Shown: positions 2,200 to 21,342 of the stretch, piece after piece
How positions within the stretch are numbered: the stretch's first letter is position 1
Layout of the letters: each line of letters starts with the position of its first letter
IMG/VR virus record: IMGVR_UViG_3300014720_002145
Location: 1-21,342 of that record
From: a virus
Strand: one strand, 5' to 3'
Length of the DNA stretch: 21,342 nucleotides
Notes under the pieces: model-generated
What the model saw: only the letters and a program-made list of their open reading frames with translations
Told to the model about the DNA's origin: nothing
Databases searched by the model: none
Made by a program: the position numbers and the translations under genes

Positions 2200-3075
2200 C
2201 TAGAATATGTACCTAATATGGTTCCAAGGTATTATTGCATCATGCAATTTAGTCCAGTCTTGTATGTAAAGATTCTTCAATCCTCTTTTGTATCTGATGT
2301 TTTTGCCACCTGTTTGAGAGAATTTATACTCTTGTACATCAGGTTGCCATAACATTTCTTCTCCAGAAATACCTTTTGCTAGATTGTCTACATGCTTTTT
2401 CTCATTGTGAGTCAAGAATATAACCTCAGCTTTGACTTTGTCTTTGTGTTTTATATCAACAAGTGCATCTAAACCTTCAAACAATAATCTATATTGATAC
2501 AACCAATCATCTTGAACAATGACAGGAGAAAAGTTAACATGTACATCATACCCTGCTTCTATGAATTTATTGATAGCTCTAATTCTATCAATAATCTTAG
2601 TGGTTCTAGGTTCTAATATATCTGCATACTTTTGAGGCATCAAGCTAAATCTTATTCTTATTTTACCATAAGGGTTGTAAGACAAAAGCTTTTCATTTAC
2701 ATACTTAGTAGCAAAACTACCCATTGCAAGAGGGTGATTTCTAAAAAAGTCAAACACAGTATCCCAATCCCACTGCTTTAAGTGCAGTGCCACGTCTGAA
2801 AAACAGCCTATGTCATACGTAACATACTCAGAGTGAGTTTGATTTGGCTTTGCTACATCTGCATAAAAGTGTACATGCGCATTGATCTTATCTAAAAGCT
2901 GACCTGTATTGGTAGCAATACTTATACCATCATTGACATGTCTTTTACAGTAACAATAAGCACATTCAAACCCACAACCAAATATAAAACTAGGTGATAT
3001 GTAATCAGTAGACCTGCCTGACTCTGTTATTTTAAGAGTCTTTCTTTCTACATATTTAGTTTGATTCAATTTCAT
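2200..3075 (-). CDS. Radical SAM protein, spore photoproduct lyase-like
   Basis: This 291-residue protein carries the radical SAM cluster motif CGFECAYC (Cys34, Cys38, Cys41), which binds a 4Fe-4S cluster and S-adenosylmethionine. Its overall plan matches the spore photoproduct lyase (SplB) family and its non-sporulation relatives: a YISPSFIFGCGF entry, a long TIM-barrel-like middle with VHVNFSPVIVQDDW, and a C-terminal IRYIF. In that family the enzyme reverses UV-induced thymine dimers. A DNA-repair role in the phage is a reasonable inference, though family members with other substrates may exist. Length is slightly below SplB of Bacillus. It follows the VWA gene after a hairpin. Confidence 0.82.
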   Translation of the reverse strand: MKLNQTKYVERKTLKITESGRSTDYISPSFIFGCGFECAYCYCKRHVNDGISIATNTGQLLDKINAHVHFYADVAKPNQTHSEYVTYDIGCFSDVALHLKQWDWDTVFDFFRNHPLAMGSFATKYVNEKLLSYNPYGKIRIRFSLMPQKYADILEPRTTKIIDRIRAINKFIEAGYDVHVNFSPVIVQDDWLYQYRLLFEGLDALVDIKHKDKVKAEVIFLTHNEKKHVDNLAKGISGEEMLWQPDVQEYKFSQTGGKNIRYKRGLKNLYIQDWTKLHDAIIPWNHIRYIF

Positions 3076-3125: not shown

Positions 3126-5018
3126 TTAAATTACTACACGCTCTTTGATAAGCTTGTCTACTTTTCTAGACATATATCCTATCAAATCTTTTGGAAGATT
3201 CTTGATATTTGTCATTTTGATAAAGTAGTCAAACATTTGAGCACTTGGTACAGATTCTTCAATTGCTATCTGAATAATTTGAAATCCTAGATTTTGAGAC
3301 ATAGAAACCTTCTTACGCGTATCTTCAATTGCGTTACTACCTCCATAATCATGTGCAGATGGTTGACCATCAGATAAAACAAACATAAGACCATTGTTTT
3401 TAGTAAAGCCACGCACACGCTTAGCAGTTGCAAGAATGGCATCACCATCCCTGTTATTACTACGTGCATTAACATTACCTAAAGCAAATGGTGCTGCAAA
3501 TCCAGGTTCTCTGTATACTCTTATGTCAGTAGACATACCTCTTTGATCAGCTGTATGACCATAGATAAATAGCTCAACATTAGGAAGTCTTTTGAATACT
3601 TCATTAATAAAAATAGCAGCTTCTCTTGCTTTGTCTATTTTACTACCAGACATAGAACCTGACTCATCTATCAAAACAGTAACAGAAATTTTATCAGTTG
3701 TAACTTGACCATAGCGTTCATATACAGTAGGTACTTTTTGAACTGCTTCTGCAATCTTATTAGTATCCAATCTGCCTGAACGCATAGATTTCATAGAAAA
3801 CTGATAGTCTTTGTTTTTACGCATAAACAGCTTTTGTAGAACAGCAGCTTTAGTTACATCAATTTTCTTCAATACGCCTTGATATCTTTCTTTATCTTCA
3901 TCAGCTCTTTGAAAATAAACTGTACTACTACCTATATTGACACCATCTTTGTTTTTCTCAGGATCATATTTTGACAAAGAATCAGACTCTTCCATGTTTT
4001 CAACAAAGTCTTCAAGCATTTCTTTAGCTTCATCACTTTCACCATCAGTTTCGCTACCCATAGACATAGAAGGCATAAGCTTTTCCATGTTTTTCTTAGC
4101 ATGCTCATTGATTTCAGCTTTAGATTTTTTCTTGCTTGGTTTTGAATCTTCATCAGAATCACTTTCACTAGACATTCCATCAGGTGCTTCAGAATCATCT
4201 TCATCTTCATCATCTTCACCTCCTGGTTCTTTAGGTTCTTCTTCATCCTCTGGTGGTTCATATGTATAGACTACATTAGCAATACTGCTTGCCATTGATT
4301 TGACATCTTGAAAAGTTTCAGGAATACCATTAAACTTTTTGATTAACCTTTCTACTTTTTTCAAAGGTTCAGCAAATTCAGTAAGTTCTTCTTCTGTCAC
4401 AGTAGCAGGATACCTCAACATTCTTGTGACAAGATCCAGCAATCTAAATTGTTCTGGTTCTGATGCATCAAGAGGTGTGTAGTTTTCTTCATAAGTATGA
4501 TTTTTGTATTTCTGAACAAACTTATTGTAACCAGGAAGTCTCTGTGAAAGCTTTTTATCAACACGCTCAGTATTTAAGATACTTGTGAAATAATTAGCAG
4601 CATTAAAATTAGCTCTGTTAGTATCAGATGCAACTTGGGTTGCATTAAATTCATAAGCAGATTGATATGCCCTAAGAGCTGCATTTTGTATACAAGCACC
4701 ATAAAAAGCATCTAGTTTTTTACCATCTGGCTCAGACCATCTGCCTTCTTCATCTTTTAGCATATGTAAAGGAATGTTTACACTGCCTTTTTTGTTTGAG
4801 GAAGTAAACGTAGAATCTTTAGGAACACCAATTACTCTAAACATAGAACCTATCATATTAGCAGCATTCTGCATAGTATCAGTAGATTTTACAAAATAAT
4901 CAGAGAATGCACTTTTACCCTTTTCCCAATCAAACATCTTTCTGCTGTTGTCTACATAGGTATAAGCATCTTCTTTTCTCCTGTTAAACCAGTCTCTTCC
5001 AAAGCTTGTTTTAGCCAT
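3126..5018 (-). CDS. VWA-domain protein, CobT/MoxR-partner type
   Basis: This 630-residue protein ends in a von Willebrand factor A domain (about 445-630). It has a complete MIDAS site: DESGS at 451-455, the RDGD segment at about 524-526, and SDG with the Asp at about 550. Residues about 252-303 form a long acidic, low-complexity linker (runs of E/D, then S/D, then KKKSK), the layout of CobT-like partners of MoxR/CobS AAA+ ATPases. In known systems such pairs act as metal-inserting or protein-remodelling chaperones, the VWA protein binding the substrate. The N-terminal 250 residues are helical and unassigned. The partner ATPase is the next gene upstream, separated by a strong hairpin. Confidence 0.85.
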   Translation of the reverse strand: MAKTSFGRDWFNRRKEDAYTYVDNSRKMFDWEKGKSAFSDYFVKSTDTMQNAANMIGSMFRVIGVPKDSTFTSSNKKGSVNIPLHMLKDEEGRWSEPDGKKLDAFYGACIQNAALRAYQSAYEFNATQVASDTNRANFNAANYFTSILNTERVDKKLSQRLPGYNKFVQKYKNHTYEENYTPLDASEPEQFRLLDLVTRMLRYPATVTEEELTEFAEPLKKVERLIKKFNGIPETFQDVKSMASSIANVVYTYEPPEDEEEPKEPGGEDDEDEDDSEAPDGMSSESDSDEDSKPSKKKSKAEINEHAKKNMEKLMPSMSMGSETDGESDEAKEMLEDFVENMEESDSLSKYDPEKNKDGVNIGSSTVYFQRADEDKERYQGVLKKIDVTKAAVLQKLFMRKNKDYQFSMKSMRSGRLDTNKIAEAVQKVPTVYERYGQVTTDKISVTVLIDESGSMSGSKIDKAREAAIFINEVFKRLPNVELFIYGHTADQRGMSTDIRVYREPGFAAPFALGNVNARSNNRDGDAILATAKRVRGFTKNNGLMFVLSDGQPSAHDYGGSNAIEDTRKKVSMSQNLGFQIIQIAIEESVPSAQMFDYFIKMTNIKNLPKDLIGYMSRKVDKLIKERVVI

Positions 5019-5046
5019 TGTTATAATTTTTAGTAATTAATAAAAA

Positions 5047-5078
5047 AGCACAGAGTATCATAGTTGACGCTCTGTGCT
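5047..5078 (-). terminator. Strong intrinsic terminator before the VWA gene
   Basis: A perfect 9-bp stem (AGCACAGAG / CTCTGTGCT) is followed on the minus strand by TTTTTTATT. It lies between the end of the AAA+ gene and the start of the VWA gene, whose ATG is only about 29 nt past the stem. Confidence 0.85.
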
Positions 5079-5143
5079 ATATCTTAGCATAGGTAATCCT
5101 TTGATAAAGGTTTGGTCATATCATAAGGATCCCAGCTTTCTTT

Positions 5144-6427
5144 TCAGAATGCAGAAACAATAGATAAGACTTTAGATCTTTCAGACACACCAATACTATC
5201 TTCAAATAATGGCATGATAGTAGAAAGTAATGCTTTCTCTACTTCAAAACCATCACTTACCAAGCTTGCAGCTTGTAGAGTATGACGCACTGAGATAGCA
5301 GAAGATAATTCTTGCTCTTTGTATTGCTTACGAATTTCATTAGAAACTCTTACAATAGCTGTAGCAGCTCTTTCTTCAATACCTGTACGTAACATCAATA
5401 CTTGTACTTCATCCTCTAACTTAGGATAGTCAAGCTCAATGATAAAGAATCTGTCTAGCAATGCTCTATCTATAGATGTAGTACCTGAGTACTCAGAACC
5501 TAAGTTAGCAGTACCAAAGAATACTGTTTCATTATGTACAGGAACAGTTCTATCACCTTCATCACACGCAATATCTACTGGTAAATATCTACGCTTGTCA
5601 AGACATGGAAATAAAATATTGTTAGCAGCAAGTGGAGCACGGTTAATCTCATCAAGCAAAACAATGTTACCAGATTTAATATGGTTTACAAATGGTGCAT
5701 ACTCAAACTCTGAGTGACCATCTTTGCCAATTCTGTGAACACCTAATAATGCTGACTGAGCATCTTGAACAGTACCCATATCCTGAGTGCTAAGCTCTCT
5801 TTCCATAGCTTTTGCTAAGTGCATTAAGATTTCTGTTTTACCAGAACCTGTAGGACCTACAAGTAAAGTATTTTCACATCTCAATACATTACGCACCATC
5901 AAGAACCATAAGTCTGGGTCAATGTGGAAACCACAATCCTCACGCTTAGGAACTGGATAATGTGCGGCTATAGTACGTTTAAGATTGCTACCTCCAGGTG
6001 CACCAGCTTCAATTGGTTTTGGAGCAGTCATTTCTTCCCAGTCAAAATCATAACCAAATGTGTTGAACTCATTAGCAATATTCTTGATGTAATCCATCTC
6101 AAATTTACCAGAGTCAAGCATGTAGTTAATTGTATAATCACAAATTTCTTGTAATTTTTCAGAAGCTAGAGTAGATAAAGGAAAAACAGTGTTCTCAAAA
6201 TATAACGCTGTTGTATGTTCTTTCATAACATGTAAGTGATCTTCTTCAGGAAAATCATACTCATCAGCAACAAACACTGTTCCTACTGGAAATTTAGCAA
6301 ACTCTGCAATAGGACCTGTAACACGTAAGTCTTCAAGACTTCTTGTTAATCTTTTCTCAAAAGATTGTCCAGGTAATGTACTGATTTGGTAGCTTGTACC
6401 ATTGATAACTGATTGTAATAGGATCAT
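5144..6427 (-). CDS. MoxR/CobS-type AAA+ ATPase
   Basis: This 427-residue protein has the AAA+ core in its middle: Walker A GPTGSGKT (191-198), Walker B IVLLDE (255-260), sensor 1 FFGTANLG (303-310) and an arginine-finger-like DRALLDRF (320-327). The NRAP sequence just after Walker B and the AL-D-RF pattern are typical of MoxR-family (CobS-like) ATPases, which work with VWA partners. The first 150 residues are an extra N-terminal region without a recognisable motif. It sits directly upstream of the VWA gene, so the two probably form a remodelling or chelatase-like complex. Phage CobS-like ATPases are known, but their substrates are mostly unknown. The start at 6427 follows an A-rich leader. 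Confidence 0.9.
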   Translation of the reverse strand: MILLQSVINGTSYQISTLPGQSFEKRLTRSLEDLRVTGPIAEFAKFPVGTVFVADEYDFPEEDHLHVMKEHTTALYFENTVFPLSTLASEKLQEICDYTINYMLDSGKFEMDYIKNIANEFNTFGYDFDWEEMTAPKPIEAGAPGGSNLKRTIAAHYPVPKREDCGFHIDPDLWFLMVRNVLRCENTLLVGPTGSGKTEILMHLAKAMERELSTQDMGTVQDAQSALLGVHRIGKDGHSEFEYAPFVNHIKSGNIVLLDEINRAPLAANNILFPCLDKRRYLPVDIACDEGDRTVPVHNETVFFGTANLGSEYSGTTSIDRALLDRFFIIELDYPKLEDEVQVLMLRTGIEERAATAIVRVSNEIRKQYKEQELSSAISVRHTLQAASLVSDGFEVEKALLSTIMPLFEDSIGVSERSKVLSIVSAF

Positions 6428-8810: not shown

Positions 8811-8834
8811 TGAGCAGTCTTTTACAACTGCTCA
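8811..8834 (-). terminator. Strong intrinsic terminator after the 8873 gene
   Basis: A perfect 8-bp stem (TGAGCAGT / ACTGCTCA) with an 8-nt loop is followed on the minus strand by TTTTTTATC. Its 5' arm with flank (GTGAGCAGTTGTAA on the minus strand) is identical to the conserved end of the repeat elements at 10772-12116. Confidence 0.85.
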
Positions 8835-10680: not shown

Positions 10681-10771
10681 TACTCTCACAAGGTTGCAAC
10701 CCTTGACATACATCCATTATGGCACATCATAAGTGCAAAGGGTAGTATGTTATCCTGCTTGGACAAGAGTA
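10681..10771. other. Inverted-repeat-bounded structured element next to R1
   Basis: TACTCT at 10681-10686 pairs with AGAGTA at 10766-10771, enclosing a hairpin at 10689-10705 (CAAGG / CCTTG around TTGCAA). It abuts the first of the three conserved-end repeats. No reading frame of note lies inside. Probably an RNA structure; strand of transcription unclear. Confidence 0.4.
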
Positions 10772-10876
10772 ATCCCTCTGCACTCAGTTGTAATAATGTA
10801 GTTATTTTGTTATATCCTACTATCCTCCTTCGTGACTATGACTTGGTTTAGGATATTACAACTGCTCACCCTTTGG
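10772..10876. repeat. Conserved-end repeat element R1
   Basis: One of three elements starting ATCCCTCTGCACTCAGTTGT and ending TTACAACTGCTCACCCTTTGG (last base here 10876). The inner parts of the ends form the inverted repeat CAGTTGTAATA / TATTACAACTG. The interior is unlike that of the other copies but has its own inverted repeat (TATCCTA / TAGGATA) that stacks on the 3' arm of the conserved stem. No coding frame is contained. It is most likely a structured RNA or a protein-binding or recombination site. Confidence 0.75.
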
Positions 10877-10976
10877 AGACTGATTAATCAGTGTGGTTTC
10901 ACATCTTACGCTTAATACCATTTCCACTCAGCTGTGGGGTTAGATTGTTATGGTGGTAAGAAGTCTTCATATCCAC

Positions 10977-10994
10977 GTGAGTTGTGGTGCATTA
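10977..10994. repeat. 18-bp direct repeat, copy 1
   Basis: GTGAGTTGTGGTGCATTA is identical to 12119-12136. Here it lies 100 bp past R1, while the second copy lies 2 bp past R3. It may be a protein-binding site or part of a shared RNA fold. Confidence 0.7.
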
Positions 10995-11005
10995 AAGTAA
11001 AGATT

Positions 11006-11035
11006 GGGGATTAGATCATTTGTTCACTAATCCCC
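11006..11035. other. Perfect 9-bp hairpin
   Basis: GGGGATTAG pairs with CTAATCCCC around a 12-nt loop. It lies in the 483-bp non-coding interval 10647-11129, which also holds R1, the element at 10681-10771, and a smaller hairpin at 11060-11079 (AAGGTA / TACCTT). Neither side has a clean T-run, so it is more likely an RNA fold than a simple terminator. Confidence 0.6.
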
Positions 11036-11106
11036 TTTAGAAACATCCCTTGTGTTTCAAAGGTATCTTTAGGTACCTTGACGTGTGGCTAATCACGACC
11101 ATATCT

Positions 11107-11129
11107 ACACTCTGTAGCCAATAGAGTGT
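11107..11129 (+). terminator. Hairpin with T-run on the plus strand
   Basis: A perfect 7-bp stem (ACACTCT / AGAGTGT) is followed on the plus strand by TTATTTTTTG. It touches the stop codon of the minus-strand gene 11130-11342, whose final lysine codons supply the T-run, so it may mark the 3' end of that gene on the minus strand instead. A plus-strand terminator for an RNA from the repeat region is also possible. Confidence 0.45.
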
Positions 11130-11342
11130 TTATTTTTTGTATCTGCCAAAGACAGTTACTTCCGTAGTTATGTGACCAGCAGAAGAATTTTTCTGGACAT
11201 AAACAACCCGCTTATTTCTAATTAAGGGATATGATTCACTATAACAGCAACCACATCCCTCACTATGATAATGCGTGGGAAGTTTACGCTTAACAAAGTT
11301 CTTTGCTTGTCCCAATGTAGAAAAGACTATAAACTTATTCAT
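11130..11342 (-). CDS. Small cysteine/histidine-containing protein (70 aa)
   Basis: The start at 11342 (MNKFIVFSTLGQAKNFVKRK) overlaps the preceding stop by 8 bp; an ATG at 11405 would give a 63-bp overlap. After a strand and a helix there is an HYHSEGCGCCYS segment with two histidines and three cysteines that could bind a metal, then a beta-rich end (KRVVYVQKNS, TTEVTVFGRYKK). No known family. It is paired with 11335-11541 in a two-gene unit flanked by repeat elements R1 and R2. Confidence 0.68.
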   Translation of the reverse strand: MNKFIVFSTLGQAKNFVKRKLPTHYHSEGCGCCYSESYPLIRNKRVVYVQKNSSAGHITTEVTVFGRYKK

Positions 11343-11541
11343 AGTATTCCAACATATAACACCCGATATCAGCCAATATTTGGGCTTCCTTGTTACCTTT
11401 ACCACACTTACTTACTAAAGTACTAATAGTACCATAGTAACCAAGATTAGCAACCATCAGCTTAAGAGCTGACTTAGTTTGGTCATCCATATACCCTAAT
11501 AAGGTATAGTGTCTCACAGTAGGTTCAAAAGTCTGTTCCAT
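11335..11541 (-). CDS. Hypothetical protein (68 aa)
   Basis: The product starts MEQTFEPTVRHYTLLGYMDD and is largely helical after the first 20 residues (QTKSALKLMVANLGYYGTIS). It has no recognised motif. Its leader contains TCTTTAAACTAATTAAAAC and lies directly after a long non-coding interval (11542-12534). Together with 11130-11342 it forms a small coupled gene pair embedded in an otherwise non-coding region. It could be a cassette carried between the repeats. Confidence 0.68.
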   Translation of the reverse strand: MEQTFEPTVRHYTLLGYMDDQTKSALKLMVANLGYYGTISTLVSKCGKGNKEAQILADIGCYMLEYYE

Positions 11542-11801
11542 TTCTATATCTGTTTTAATTAGTTTAAAGATAAAAACCCTAGTACTGATTTTCAGGACCG
11601 TTTAACTAGGATAAGCCACGGGCTGTCAGTGAGACAGCTTCTGTACGATACCAGTCACTAACTGGATAGCTTGAGTTTAAATAATGTTGGTCATCACCCT
11701 TTCATAGTTTAAAATAAAGCCAGTTTAAACACTTGGCTTAGTACTTAATCACAGCTGTTATCTTTCAACCTGATGTCAGCTAGTTTAGAGGTATGTGAAT
11801 A

Positions 11802-11916
11802 ATCCTTCTGCACTCAGTTGTAATACCAACCTGATATTTTTGCACTCCACATGGTATGGACTAACCCTCATTACTGAAGCTGCATATTTCCTGGTTTACA
11901 ACTGCTCACCCTAAGG
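11802..11916. repeat. Conserved-end repeat element R2
   Basis: It shares the ends of R1 and R3: CTTCTGCACTCAGTTGTAAT on the left (one C-to-T change) and TTTACAACTGCTCACCCTAAGG on the right. The interior is unrelated to the other two. The pairing CAGTTGTAAtACCA / TGGTTTACAACTG extends the stem beyond the conserved part, so this copy also closes a stem with compensating sequence. Confidence 0.75.
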
Positions 11917-11994
11917 TTAGTGCAAAGAGAATAATGTTGCATTTGTATAATGTTTCAACTCTTGTTCAAATGCTAATACTTTAAGTATATAAAT

Positions 11995-12116
11995 ATCCCT
12001 CTGCACTCAGTTGTAATATAGTTTTCACAAAACATGGCTTTACATAATCACTATGATTATGAAGGTCTGCACCTCATTGATGTTTGTCACTATTATTACA
12101 ACTGCTCACCCTTTGG
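11995..12116. repeat. Conserved-end repeat element R3
   Basis: The left end ATCCCTCTGCACTCAGTTGT and right end TTACAACTGCTCACCCTTTGG match R1. The terminal stem here is about 15 bp (CAGTTGTAATATAGT against ACTATTATTACAACTG). The interior has its own perfect hairpin CATAATCA / TGATTATG. It begins 78 bp after R2, in the same orientation. Confidence 0.75.
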
Positions 12117-12118
12117 AA

Positions 12119-12136
12119 GTGAGTTGTGGTGCATTA
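12119..12136. repeat. 18-bp direct repeat, copy 2
   Basis: Identical to 10977-10994 (GTGAGTTGTGGTGCATTA), located 2 bp beyond the right end of R3. Confidence 0.7.
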
Positions 12137-12215: not shown

Positions 12216-12397
12216 CAGTCAGTCACTAAAACAAATGCAAATAAAAAGTGGCTGACTTAAAAGAACTGCACTTCTACTAAAAGCTAATAAAGAACAAATA
12301 CTACATAGAGATATAAAGAAAGAAACTAAGTCTTATATTCTATAGTATGTATGTAAACAGATAGTAATGTATAAACATATGCATAGTAGTAAGTACT

Positions 12398-12422
12398 ATC
12401 TTATGCTATTGTGTGTTTACAG
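12398..12422. repeat. Outlying copy of the TATGCTACTGGGTG repeat
   Basis: ATCTTATGCTATTGTGTGTT followed by TACAG matches the motif repeated at 13119, 13266 and 13354. It overlaps a palindromic structure: ATAGTA / TACTAT at 12383-12399, enclosed by GTAAACA (12353-12359) and TGTTTAC (12414-12420). Confidence 0.5.
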
Positions 12423-12468
12423 TCTGATTAGCTATATATTGCGCGCATTTTTTGTCAGATTACAGGTT

Positions 12469-12534: not shown

Positions 12535-13035
12535 TTATTTCCCTGGAAATGCAGGTTTGTTGCTTGCAGATTGGCTGTCTTTGTGAGCCATAACCTCATC
12601 AAGGTTGTCGTGAGTCACAAACAAGTCAGTGCTCTGTGCAGACGGGTCATATTTGCTGAATCTTACAATCTTAACACCATTGTAAGTCAACGCAGGACCA
12701 TCAGCACCTGCACGTTTGATGAAACCATCAATGGCTTCAGCAAAAGGTACATCATCACGTAGAAATTCCTTCTGAACTTCAGCTGGAATACTGTCTGCTA
12801 AGTACTCCATGACAGTGATTTTGCCAGGTACTTCAAGTGTTTTGTGCATTGCAACAAAGCTTGTAAGTAACTTAGTTTGAGCGCGTAATAAGCAACTTCT
12901 TTTAGACTCTCTAATCCATCCTCCACTGATAGACATCTCGCTAGACTCAAGCTGAATATAGCCAAATTCAGCGTTGTTTTTGTACGTGGATACTAAATTC
13001 CCTGTCTTTGCAGGGACAATTTTTACTGTAGACAT
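12535..13035 (-). CDS. Conserved phage protein, paralogue A, possible ssDNA-binding protein
   Basis: This 166-residue protein is a clear paralogue of 14320-14829: both share KIVPA/S-G, a FGY strand, ES-M followed by GWI-E-KR-C-LRA, a KLL-F-AM helix, SIPA-VQKE--RDD-PFAEAI, FIK-AG-DGPALT and VRF--YDPS-QSTD. The strand-rich first half followed by an acidic, low-complexity tail fits phage ssDNA-binding proteins, and similar proteins occur in Bacteroidota phages, but I cannot prove this assignment. Its codons are more GC-rich than those of its neighbours, as expected for strong expression. Iteron-like repeats lie just upstream. Confidence 0.85.
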   Translation of the reverse strand: MSTVKIVPAKTGNLVSTYKNNAEFGYIQLESSEMSISGGWIRESKRSCLLRAQTKLLTSFVAMHKTLEVPGKITVMEYLADSIPAEVQKEFLRDDVPFAEAIDGFIKRAGADGPALTYNGVKIVRFSKYDPSAQSTDLFVTHDNLDEVMAHKDSQSASNKPAFPGK

Positions 13036-13095: not shown

Positions 13096-13371
13096 TACTG
13101 TATGCCACAGGTATGCTTATCTTATGCTACTGGGTGAAAACAGGTAGATTTTGGTAAAATACTCTATTTTGTAACAGGTTGATTTTGAGGTAGTGAGTCT
13201 CAATGTTACACAGGTAAAACAAAACTAATTATTACTTGCAATAAGTTTACAATATTCTAGAAATTCTTACTGTATGCTACTGGGTGTTTACCTGTTGACT
13301 TTGGAAGGCTTATTTCTTCCTCTACTAGCTGCAGAAGGTAATACTACAAAAGTCTTACTGTATGCTACTGG
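13096..13371. repeat. Iteron-like repeat cluster upstream of paralogue A
   Basis: The core TATGCTACTGGGTG occurs at 13119-13136 (preceded by ATCT) and 13266-13286, and in shortened form at 13354-13371; the last two share CTTACTGTATGCTACTGG. A weaker match (TACTGTATGCCACAGG) lies at about 13097. A second repeat, AACAGGT-GATTTTG, occurs at 13139-13153 and 13173-13187. The 471-bp interval 13036-13506 contains no gene. Clustered repeats next to a possible ssDNA-binding gene fit a replication origin or operator array; this is inference. Confidence 0.6.
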
Positions 13372-13425
13372 TTGGCTGCAGTCTTTCTTTTGAAGTCACA
13401 CACCTAACAGAATGGTAATTAAAAC

Positions 13426-14319: not shown

Positions 14320-14829
14320 TTACTCACCACCTGGAAGAGACGCACTGACTTCACCATCAGCGTCATCAGCATTACGCTTCACCCACTCCATCACCTCATC
14401 AATATTGTCATACTGCAACATAGAATCAGTGCTTTGACCACTTGGGTCATAGTTGGTAAAACGCACAATAGGCACACCACCTATTGTTAATGCTGGGCCA
14501 TCCTTACCAGCCTTCTTGATGAAGTCTGCAATGGCCTCTGCAAATGGAATGTCATCTCTGACATGCTCCTTCTGCACATGCGCAGGTATTGAGTTTGCTA
14601 GAAACTCTTGGACACATATCCTTCCTGAAATGGAAGGCATTGCAGCAAATGCGCCTAGCAACTTAACCTCTGCACGCAAGATGCAGGTGCGCTTCTTTTC
14701 CTTTATCCAGCCATTGGCAAATACCATGTCTGTAGATTCAAGGACTACGTATCCAAACACTGGGTTATTTGCATACGTTCTAACTGCTGTACCATTCGCG
14801 CTTGGTACAATTTTAATTTTTGAGCTCAT
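14320..14829 (-). CDS. Conserved phage protein, paralogue B, possible ssDNA-binding protein
   Basis: This 169-residue protein is the second copy of the family described at 12535-13035, with the same block order: KIVPS-G, FGYVVLES, GWIKEKKRTCILRAE, SIPAHVQKEHVRDDIPFAEA, DGPALT-GGVPIVRFTNYDPS. It lacks a 4-residue stretch after the AAM helix and has a different, acidic tail (ADDADGEVSASLPGGE). Codon use is GC-richer than in neighbours. The two copies are about 1.3 kb apart with two small-gene units between, which suggests an old duplication followed by division of roles, or a heteromer. Confidence 0.85.
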   Translation of the reverse strand: MSSKIKIVPSANGTAVRTYANNPVFGYVVLESTDMVFANGWIKEKKRTCILRAEVKLLGAFAAMPSISGRICVQEFLANSIPAHVQKEHVRDDIPFAEAIADFIKKAGKDGPALTIGGVPIVRFTNYDPSGQSTDSMLQYDNIDEVMEWVKRNADDADGEVSASLPGGE

Positions 14830-20298: not shown

Positions 20299-21342
20299 AT
20301 GTATAGAGAAATACCTACATACACGTATGAGACTAAAACATGGTCCACAACATCTTTTGAGACAAAGCAAGAGTTGTTAGATTATTTGCTGCCTCTGTTT
20401 AAAGAGCCAGGTCAATATAATTTTGATGAGAGTTCTGAGATGTTTAATGAGCAAGCTAGAATTTTTAATAAAACAAGAGTATATTGTATAGCTCCTGAAA
20501 GGTCAAAAGATTTTACTGAGTATTGGAATACTCAAAAAGATAGATGCAGAAATGGTATCTTAATCAAACACAAAAAGAATACATGGTATCTTCCAAGAGA
20601 TTACTACATGTGGCTTAACTTTCTACCAATCTATAACAAAGAAGTAAACAAATTTACGTTTGCTGATGTGCGTGATGCTCAGTATCACATGGCTCTATAT
20701 GAAGAACTTGCACAATTATCCAATAAGCATGCAGCAATTTTGAAGAAACGTCAGATTGCATCTTCTTATTATCATGCTGGAAAAATTATAAATCTATTTT
20801 GGTTTGAAGAAGGTTCTGTATCCAAAATGGCTGGTTCCCTAAAAGATTATATCAATGAAAAAGGAACCTGGCGTTTTATGGAAGAATACAGAAACTTCCT
20901 AAACAAACATACTGCATGGTACAGACCATGTAACCCAGACAAAGTATTAAACTGGGAACAAAAAGCAGAAGTTACCCAAGGAGGTAGAAAAGTAGATATT
21001 GGTTTAAAATCTGCACTTATGGGTGTGGTTTTAGATAAAGATCCTACAAATGGTGTTGGGGGTCCTTGTACATTATTCTTTCATGAAGAAGCAGGGATTG
21101 CACCAAAAATGAATACAACCATAGAGTACCTTTTACCAGCTATGAAATCAGGTATGATATATACTGGTATGTTTGTGGTAGCAGGTTCTGTGGGTGACTT
21201 AGATCAGTGTGAACCATTAAAAGAAATGGTAATGAACCCTGATTCAAAAGATGTATATGCTGTTGAAACAACCTTGTTAGATGAGCATGATACAAAAGGA
21301 ATGTGTGGTTTATTTATACCTGAACAATGGTCAATGCTACCA
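20299..21342 (+). CDS. terL: Terminase large subunit, N-terminal part
   Basis: The open frame starts MYREIPTYTYETKTWSTTSF and is still open at the window end (348 residues visible). It has the ATPase half of a DNA-packaging motor: a degenerate Walker A (KKRQIASSYYHAG, about 149-161), a Walker B with catalytic Glu in TLFFHEEAG (258-266), and the coupling motif FVVAGSVGD (292-300). The N-terminal region with NGILIKHKKNTWYLPRDYYM is like terminases of large Bacteroidota phages. The nuclease half is outside the window. The ATG lies 2 nt after the previous stop, without Shine-Dalgarno. Confidence 0.9.
   Translation, partial: MYREIPTYTYETKTWSTTSFETKQELLDYLLPLFKEPGQYNFDESSEMFNEQARIFNKTRVYCIAPERSKDFTEYWNTQKDRCRNGILIKHKKNTWYLPRDYYMWLNFLPIYNKEVNKFTFADVRDAQYHMALYEELAQLSNKHAAILKKRQIASSYYHAGKIINLFWFEEGSVSKMAGSLKDYINEKGTWRFMEEYRNFLNKHTAWYRPCNPDKVLNWEQKAEVTQGGRKVDIGLKSALMGVVLDKDPTNGVGGPCTLFFHEEAGIAPKMNTTIEYLLPAMKSGMIYTGMFVVAGSVGDLDQCEPLKEMVMNPDSKDVYAVETTLLDEHDTKGMCGLFIPEQWSMLP

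Follow-up and report, generated by a model that had tools for sequence, protein, structure and literature searches.

Three stretches of a viral genome, R1, R2 and R3, share their ends and differ in what lies between them. Are they a family of small RNAs in which a constant stem closes a variable payload, or recombination sites for cassettes, as an initial annotation of this DNA had proposed side by side? The window, that is, the whole stretch of DNA analysed here, is an entire virus record of 21.3 kb (IMG/VR IMGVR_UViG_3300014720_002145). Its genes lie on the minus strand up to about 15.75 kb and on the plus strand beyond, the last one being a truncated TerL at 20299.

The end repeats proved to be real: CTGCACTCAGTTGTAAT occurs three times in the window (0.14 expected even at three mismatches) and TTACAACTGCTCACC four times with at most one mismatch, well beyond chance. 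As annotated, the three interiors are mutually unrelated and each copy extends the stem with a different sequence. The reading direction and the extents needed correction. R1, R2 and R3 are copies of a single structured element, here called element I, which is read on the minus strand and comes in three architectures (Table 1). The annotated coordinates are right for one arm, P3, plus the constant 3′ tail, but the true 5′ boundaries lie further out, at ~12136 instead of 12116 in R3, ~11931 instead of 11916 in R2 and ~10994 instead of 10876 in R1, which thereby gains three additional helices. On the minus strand, the constant parts read CC-N-AAGGGTGAG-CAGTTGTAAT on the 5′ side and ATTACAACTG-AGTGCAGAGGG on the 3′ side. 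A covariance model (CM) built without sequences from the window returned R3, R1 and R2 as its three top matches there; each lies on the minus strand, and the model gave no further strong match. The annotated match of one element end to a terminator arm at 8811-8834 holds for 14 of 15 bases, but this arm belongs to an ordinary terminator hairpin without CM match as an element, and we treated the likeness as incidental.

Table 1. Coordinates and parts of element I copies and adjoining features in the window.
Feature	Position	Strand	Details
R3, form A	11995..12136	-	CM 82.1 bits, E=2.2e-21
R3 P1	12133-12129 with 12006-12002	-	TGCAC with GTGCA
R3 P2	12123-12119 with 12109-12105	-	CTCAC with GTGAG; loop TTCCAAAGG
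R3 P3, exchanged arm, variable interior, 97 nt	12104-12008	-	93.8% identity to L154 (form A, P2 = CCTGA/TCAGG); 3′ tail GAGGG
R2, form C	11804..11931	-	CM 36.8 bits, E=1.4e-8; form C relatives with covarying P1
R2 P1, extended	3′ strand 11814-11804	-	CTCTTTGCACT with AGTGCAGAAGG
R2 P2		-	simple hairpin AACCTTAGGGT
R2 P3, exchanged arm, 90 nt	11904-11815	-	95.6% identity to L036 (form A)
R1, form B, full length	10774..10994	-	CM 43.7 bits, E=1.6e-10; form B alignment and consensus fold
R1 P1	near 10991	-	TGCAC
R1 P2	10981-10977 with 10869-10865	-	CTCAC with GTGAG
R1 P4	10976-10973 with 10896-10893	-	GTGG with CCAC
R1 P5 arm	10905..10960	-	interior CATAACAATCTAACCCCACAGCTGAGTGG resembles sequences of L104, L176 and L127 in other contexts
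R1 P6		-	CTGATTAATCAG; arm empty
R1 P3, exchanged arm, 80 nt	10864-10785	-	93.8% identity to L105, flanks different there
RNA-like module II	10681..10771	-	TACTCTTGTCCAAGCAGG ... CAAGGGTTGCAACCTTGTGAGAGTA; closing stem TACTCT/AGAGTA
Pair of small ORFs, overlapping, located between R1 and R2	11130..11541	-	no family match; outside element I

Form A, represented by R3, has three helices in the order TAATGCACC-spacer-P2-TTCCCAAGG-P2′-P3-A-GTGCA-GAGGG, with P1 formed by TGCAC/GTGCA. P1 variants in this form are TGTAC/GTACA, TGCGT/ACGCA, TGTAT/ATACA and TGCAT/ATGCA, while P2 occurs as CTCAC/GTGAG, CCTGA/TCAGG, TCTAC/GTAGA, CCTGT/ACAGG, TCAGC/GCTGA, CTATC/GATAG, CTAGC/GCTAG, CTAGT/ACTAG and more. 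Form B (R1) has six helices: P1 and P2 of form A, with P2 enclosing P4 (GTGG...CCAC, also GTAG...CTAC), the P5 arm (CTTA...TAAG) and the P6 arm (CTGATTA...TAATCAG, also AATGATT/AATCATT and ATTATTGAC/GTCAATAGT), followed by CTCCCAAGG. We rejected form B as a separate family, its 5′ half being that of form A plus an extra domain inside P2. In form C (R2), P1 is extended to up to 11 bp (CCCTTTGCACT/AGTGCAGAGGG) and covaries (for example CCCCAGTGCACT/AGTGCATTGGGG), and P2 is a simple hairpin. Forms A and B have an invariant CCC in the P2 loop and an invariant GAGGG in the tail; this loop is missing from form C, whose tail is paired within P1. The constant part is a junction of three to six helices and not the one closing stem of the initial annotation, whose noted ends close arm P3.

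The initial annotation had listed a lack of covariation in homologues and a lack of copies in other genomes among the outcomes that would refute it. Neither applies, and the base pairs covary strongly. Among 36 form A sequences, none of them from the window, 95.9% of the cells were paired, and sliding the partner by one column reduced this to 23-27%. Two-sided changes occurred at 15 of the 21 pairs (6.5 in shuffles) and in 81 cells (21.8 in shuffles, with none of 500 shuffles reaching this level); in P2, all five pairs covaried. For form B, 24 sequences were aligned with their interiors trimmed. RNAalifold recovered P1-P6 with 17 of 38 pairs covarying, and because it was run without a given structure, the support for the fold goes beyond hand-made pairing. 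With the structure given, 97.8% of the cells were paired and 18 of 34 pairs carried two-sided changes (9.4 in shuffles), including all seven pairs of P6. Although the controls for both forms remove relatedness incompletely, one or two events would not account for the many kinds of pairs seen in P2 and P6. Compensatory base changes support one secondary structure and maintain the junction core, which comprises P1, P2 and the base of P3, together with P4-P6 in the long form. By itself, covariation does not distinguish an RNA fold from a fold of single-stranded DNA.

Copies also exist in many other genomes. Scanning IMG/VR for CAACTGAGTGCARNRGG yielded at least 120 stretches, nearly all of them element I, with the partner CAGTTG upstream and with differing interiors and flanks. 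At least 120 stretches were likewise found with the 5′ motif, and a 20-mer of the long form (form B) matched 35. Relatives are thus abundant in IMG/VR and their total is large. Pattern scans favour the motif searched, so that the conservation of the tail is partly ascertainment; the tail was, however, recovered independently by the 5′-motif scan. Among 84,980 GTDB genomes, the 5′ motif matched six times. One match, the 5′ half of form A at the end of a 4.6-kb contig in an alphaproteobacterium bin from Lake Lanier, is probably a misplaced phage contig, and the others came without the matching 3′ end; the idea of hosts among these sequenced bacteria was accordingly rejected. Neither the region nor the whole window nor a 44-nt consensus had a blastn match in annotated phages, a CM search of eight named phage records that are relatives gave no convincing match (best E=0.08), and peptide patterns detected no related proteins. 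No Rfam 15 family matched element I at gathering score, whether in the window or in 26 loci, nor at a relaxed threshold in the window region or eight further loci. The element is apparently uncatalogued and undescribed, as far as a partial literature search reaches that took in few subscription papers and no supplementary tables.

Among known structured phage RNAs, GOLLD and ROOL are close in kind: large, ornate phage and prophage RNAs of unknown function that were found by covariation, frequently lie close to tRNAs and contain an internal linker that varies (Nature 2025, PMC12286853). Element I shares with them that it is a structured phage RNA with a variable part recognized by covariation, but it is much smaller (~70-350 nt), has three separate variable arms and exchanges these between genomes; the Rfam models of GOLLD and ROOL do not match it (gathering score, window and 26 loci). 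Elsewhere in the loci Rfam matched hatchet, tRNA and tmRNA only. Hatchet ribozymes (RF02678) lie at L001:5635-5767, L005:2975-3112, L111:3088-3239 and L131:191-325, that is, in no fewer than four phages, L081 being a repeat of L001, and since they are on the same strand as element I and ~1-1.4 kb upstream of it, the same transcripts probably carry both. The hatchet is a distinct RNA; element I has no match to its model, and no cleavage is implied. Transfer RNAs are also present in element I loci, a tmRNA gene is found in a phage contig of the group (L131:8424-8820), and a hammerhead-like CTGATGAGTCCTAGTGGGACGAAAC lies directly downstream of the element at L089:2740-2800, though Rfam did not call it at gathering score. 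Module II, which is likewise conserved and has the consensus TACTCT(C/T)(A/G)TCCAAGCAGG ... AAGGGTTGCAACCTTGTGAGAGTA, accompanies element I at about 40 loci; it stands immediately 5′ of the element in L054 and L112 but 3′ of R1 in the window. A transcript combining element I with hatchet, tRNAs, the hammerhead-like sequence and module II is plausible.

If the core is conserved, what happens to the arms? With our own scripts and ad hoc thresholds (for GTDB and element extraction, form A lengths, interior-exchange pairs and downstream-gene clusters), 209 extracted elements fell into 152 interior clusters, a count in which a few neighbouring copies are wrongly joined, such as the R3 5′ end with the R2 3′ end. 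There were 74 pairs with similar interiors, 46 of them with neither flank similar and 28 across forms; conversely, interiors differed in 138 of the 163 pairs with similar downstream sequence. All three P3 interiors of the window recur at 90-96% identity in phages with different surroundings, those of R2 and R3 on other scaffolds. The R2 arm is 90% identical in L202, a form B element whose closing stem there is CAATTG/CAATTG, altered on both strands; the partner of the R1 arm, L105, has an aberrant 5′ side. P3 interiors are hence swapped as whole units between elements with differing flanks and architectures. The small-RNA proposal comes close, with exchangeable arm interiors as the payload. 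The cassette proposal is borne out only insofar as interiors are swapped at the conserved ends; the copies bound no gene cassette. P3 arms are always present and their interiors are free in sequence: no empty P3 was found among the loci searched, form A interiors measure at least 36 nt, and the sole empty arm is P6 of R1, which is why arms seem to be wanted despite their free sequence. We rejected the interiors as strongly structured RNAs, their folding stability being only slightly above the control (mean z -0.89 versus -0.57); with so weak a shift, most arms may carry no function.

The exchange extends beyond element I. A 127-nt interior sits on differing stems in L173, L186 and L005, as does an 86-nt interior in L162 and L092. 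A module of the form CTCC-var-GGAG-TTAAATAGGGGATTTAACGYAGAACCA, whose inner stem is CCTG/CAGG in L214, occurs in element I, on other stems and at L216:4790-4870, where it caps what appears to be the stem of an intrinsic terminator, GATGCGGG/CCCGCATC. At L005:6460-6640 the 127-nt module lies between two genes and is flanked by an imperfect 9-base direct repeat (AGTAAACTT / AGTAACTTT). About ten relatives have these flanks directly adjacent, so it was inserted in L005, unless all these relatives have lost it. Modules are, in other words, occasionally placed onto unrelated stems or into new intergenic sites.

We then looked at the genomic setting. The CM matched once or twice in 24 of the 26 records that measure 95-128 kb. 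Element I lies on the strand opposite to TerL and 6-31 kb upstream of it in 14 of the 16 records with a recognised TerL, and in the other two if these are circular; in the window the distance is 8-10 kb. Since the TerLs of two of the records (G018 and G019) share only 21-25% identity with that of the window, the association is old. The window TerL is closest to crAss-like phages (at most 28% identity) and has a weaker likeness to Flavobacterium phages, from which we infer a Bacteroidota host; TerL similarity likewise points to an environmental clade related to crAss-like phages as the carriers. Most elements lie between genes (an ORF of at least 60 codons is overlapped by 16 of 138) and on the same strand as their nearest genes (121 of 133 and 121 of 135 for the two neighbours), which is weak evidence because the gene block has a single direction of transcription. 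Within 1-2 kb there can be two or three copies of differing architecture. The downstream genes are highly diverse (108 clusters among 180 ORFs) and do not form the consistent class expected of a riboswitch or leader for one pathway. An RNP partner of the Ro60/Y RNA type was considered in the DUF2828/DUF7788 protein, which may be Ro60-like. Its gene lies near the element in 10 loci but occurs in only one of the 26 large records; the candidate was rejected, and no protein partner was found.

Several neighbours in the window deserve mention in their own right. Direct repeats around CTTACTGTATGCTACTGGGTG at 12397-12429, 13111-13157, 13261-13307 and 13349-13395, in the next gene-poor stretch, are possibly promoters or iterons. 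Two minus-strand genes at 12535-13035 and 14320-14829 form a clearly similar pair (MS..KIVP...G) without Pfam or PHROG match, and L088 has a homologue of them upstream of its element I. At 3126-6427 (minus strand), a CobT-like VWA protein stands beside a MoxR/CobS-like AAA ATPase, a pair whose nearest relatives are in Bacteroides phage BS162P1 and a human gut phage. A phage protein matching spore photoproduct lyase (radical SAM; 2200-3075, minus strand) is kept in about 18 of the fetched loci.

Could mobility between genes, rather than an RNA, be what these elements are about? Mobile regulatory cassettes of T4-type phages, consisting of a promoter and a stem-loop, were reportedly proposed by Arbiol et al. 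in 2010. As such a cassette, element I would give each newly acquired gene an expression signal and its RNA fold would be incidental. Like those cassettes it comprises intergenic stem-loops shuffled between small genes of large phages: it is intergenic with diverse downstream genes and is shuffled independently of its neighbours, homologous genes are accompanied, depending on the relative, by element I, by a different module with a stem of its own or just by a terminator, and terminator-like hairpins stand just upstream in 16 of 101 cases (19 of 505 at random). A six-helix covarying fold, however, far exceeds the needs of a promoter with a hairpin, a genome usually has one or two copies and not one per gene, sigma-70-like matches in the region do not outnumber those in shuffles (for the sigma-70 consensus, from which Bacteroidota or phage promoters may differ), and what is exchanged is an RNA arm, whereas in T4-type cassettes it is the gene. 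This makes a cassette with an incidental fold rather unlikely. The reading of the initial annotation as recombination sites would amount to a folded single-stranded DNA site resembling integron attC, at which a phage recombinase exchanges cassettes. Complementary conserved ends around unrelated, exchanged middles and a strand-specific, covarying fold, with structure outweighing sequence, are indeed common to both. But the core sites R′/R″ of attC are GTTRRRY / RYYYAAC, and in the constant ends CAGTTGTAAT / ATTACAACTG this motif was not seen, GTTGTAA by inspection not fitting GTTRRRY. In addition, the exchanged units are hairpin interiors and not genes, there is usually one copy per genome with no gene cassettes between successive sites, and P2 and P6 covary though they lie outside the exchanged unit. 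A phage-encoded tyrosine recombinase (PF00589) occurs in one of 14 genomes and is absent from 13, a count that leaves room for a host enzyme. We regard attC-like sites as very improbable.

Other DNA-level roles fare no better. A replication origin, a packaging signal or a similar DNA site with a fold on one strand would account for the low copy number, the conserved position relative to TerL and the structure conserved on one strand, but hardly for two or three copies of different architecture within 1-2 kb or for lengths and arms that vary freely, and no replication or packaging gene consistently adjoins; we consider it very improbable. A miniature transposable element with CAGTTGTAAT/ATTACAACTG as inverted terminal repeats has those repeats in its favour, as well as the L005 module with its one filled against ~10 empty sites and possible 9-base duplication, which concerns a related module and not element I itself. 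Conservation nevertheless extends beyond the repeats on both sides (P1, P2 and tail), and modules jump without them. Outside element I, TTGTAAT/ATTACAA pairs rank 5 of 105 permuted motifs, not clearly above the rest, and were also rejected as a universal module joint. Such a transposon is extremely improbable.

We think it likely that element I is a structured RNA element with a selected core and recombined arms, sharing its reading direction with the genes around it. Its core would act as a folded RNA within the transcript of an early or non-structural gene block, where the element would occupy space between small genes. In forms A and B the CCC of the P2 loop probably contacts the GAGGG of the 3′ tail, a contact suggested by form C, which lacks that loop and places the tail into a longer P1. 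Phage recombination may replace the arms, using the conserved stem strands if these match and some low-homology route otherwise. Selection would then act on the core, and the arms would be peripheral domains, some of them RNA modules in their own right. Our best guess for its job is that of a stable structured RNA domain, either trans-acting or protecting or insulating the transcript; a single-gene switch is disfavoured because downstream genes differ almost from copy to copy.

A further possibility, which we put forward tentatively and with more doubt than belief, is that the scaffold slots P3, P5 and P6 take up circulating RNA modules and so diversify functional RNAs by combinatorial shuffling of domains. 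If true, modules would sit on many stems, terminators included, and RNAs would diversify like the protein domains of mosaic phages. Mosaicism of phage proteins and genes is textbook knowledge; to our knowledge, this does not hold for a structured RNA whose domains are mosaic and whose modules recur on several unrelated stems. Our results suggest that RNA domains are themselves shuffled like cassettes.

Given the strong covariation, the fold is directly testable, and the division into a fixed core and interchangeable arms shows which part to mutate. Element I adds an apparently undescribed class of structured RNA to a widespread group of crAss-related phages, in which RNA hairpin arms pass between genomes while the scaffold remains under selection.
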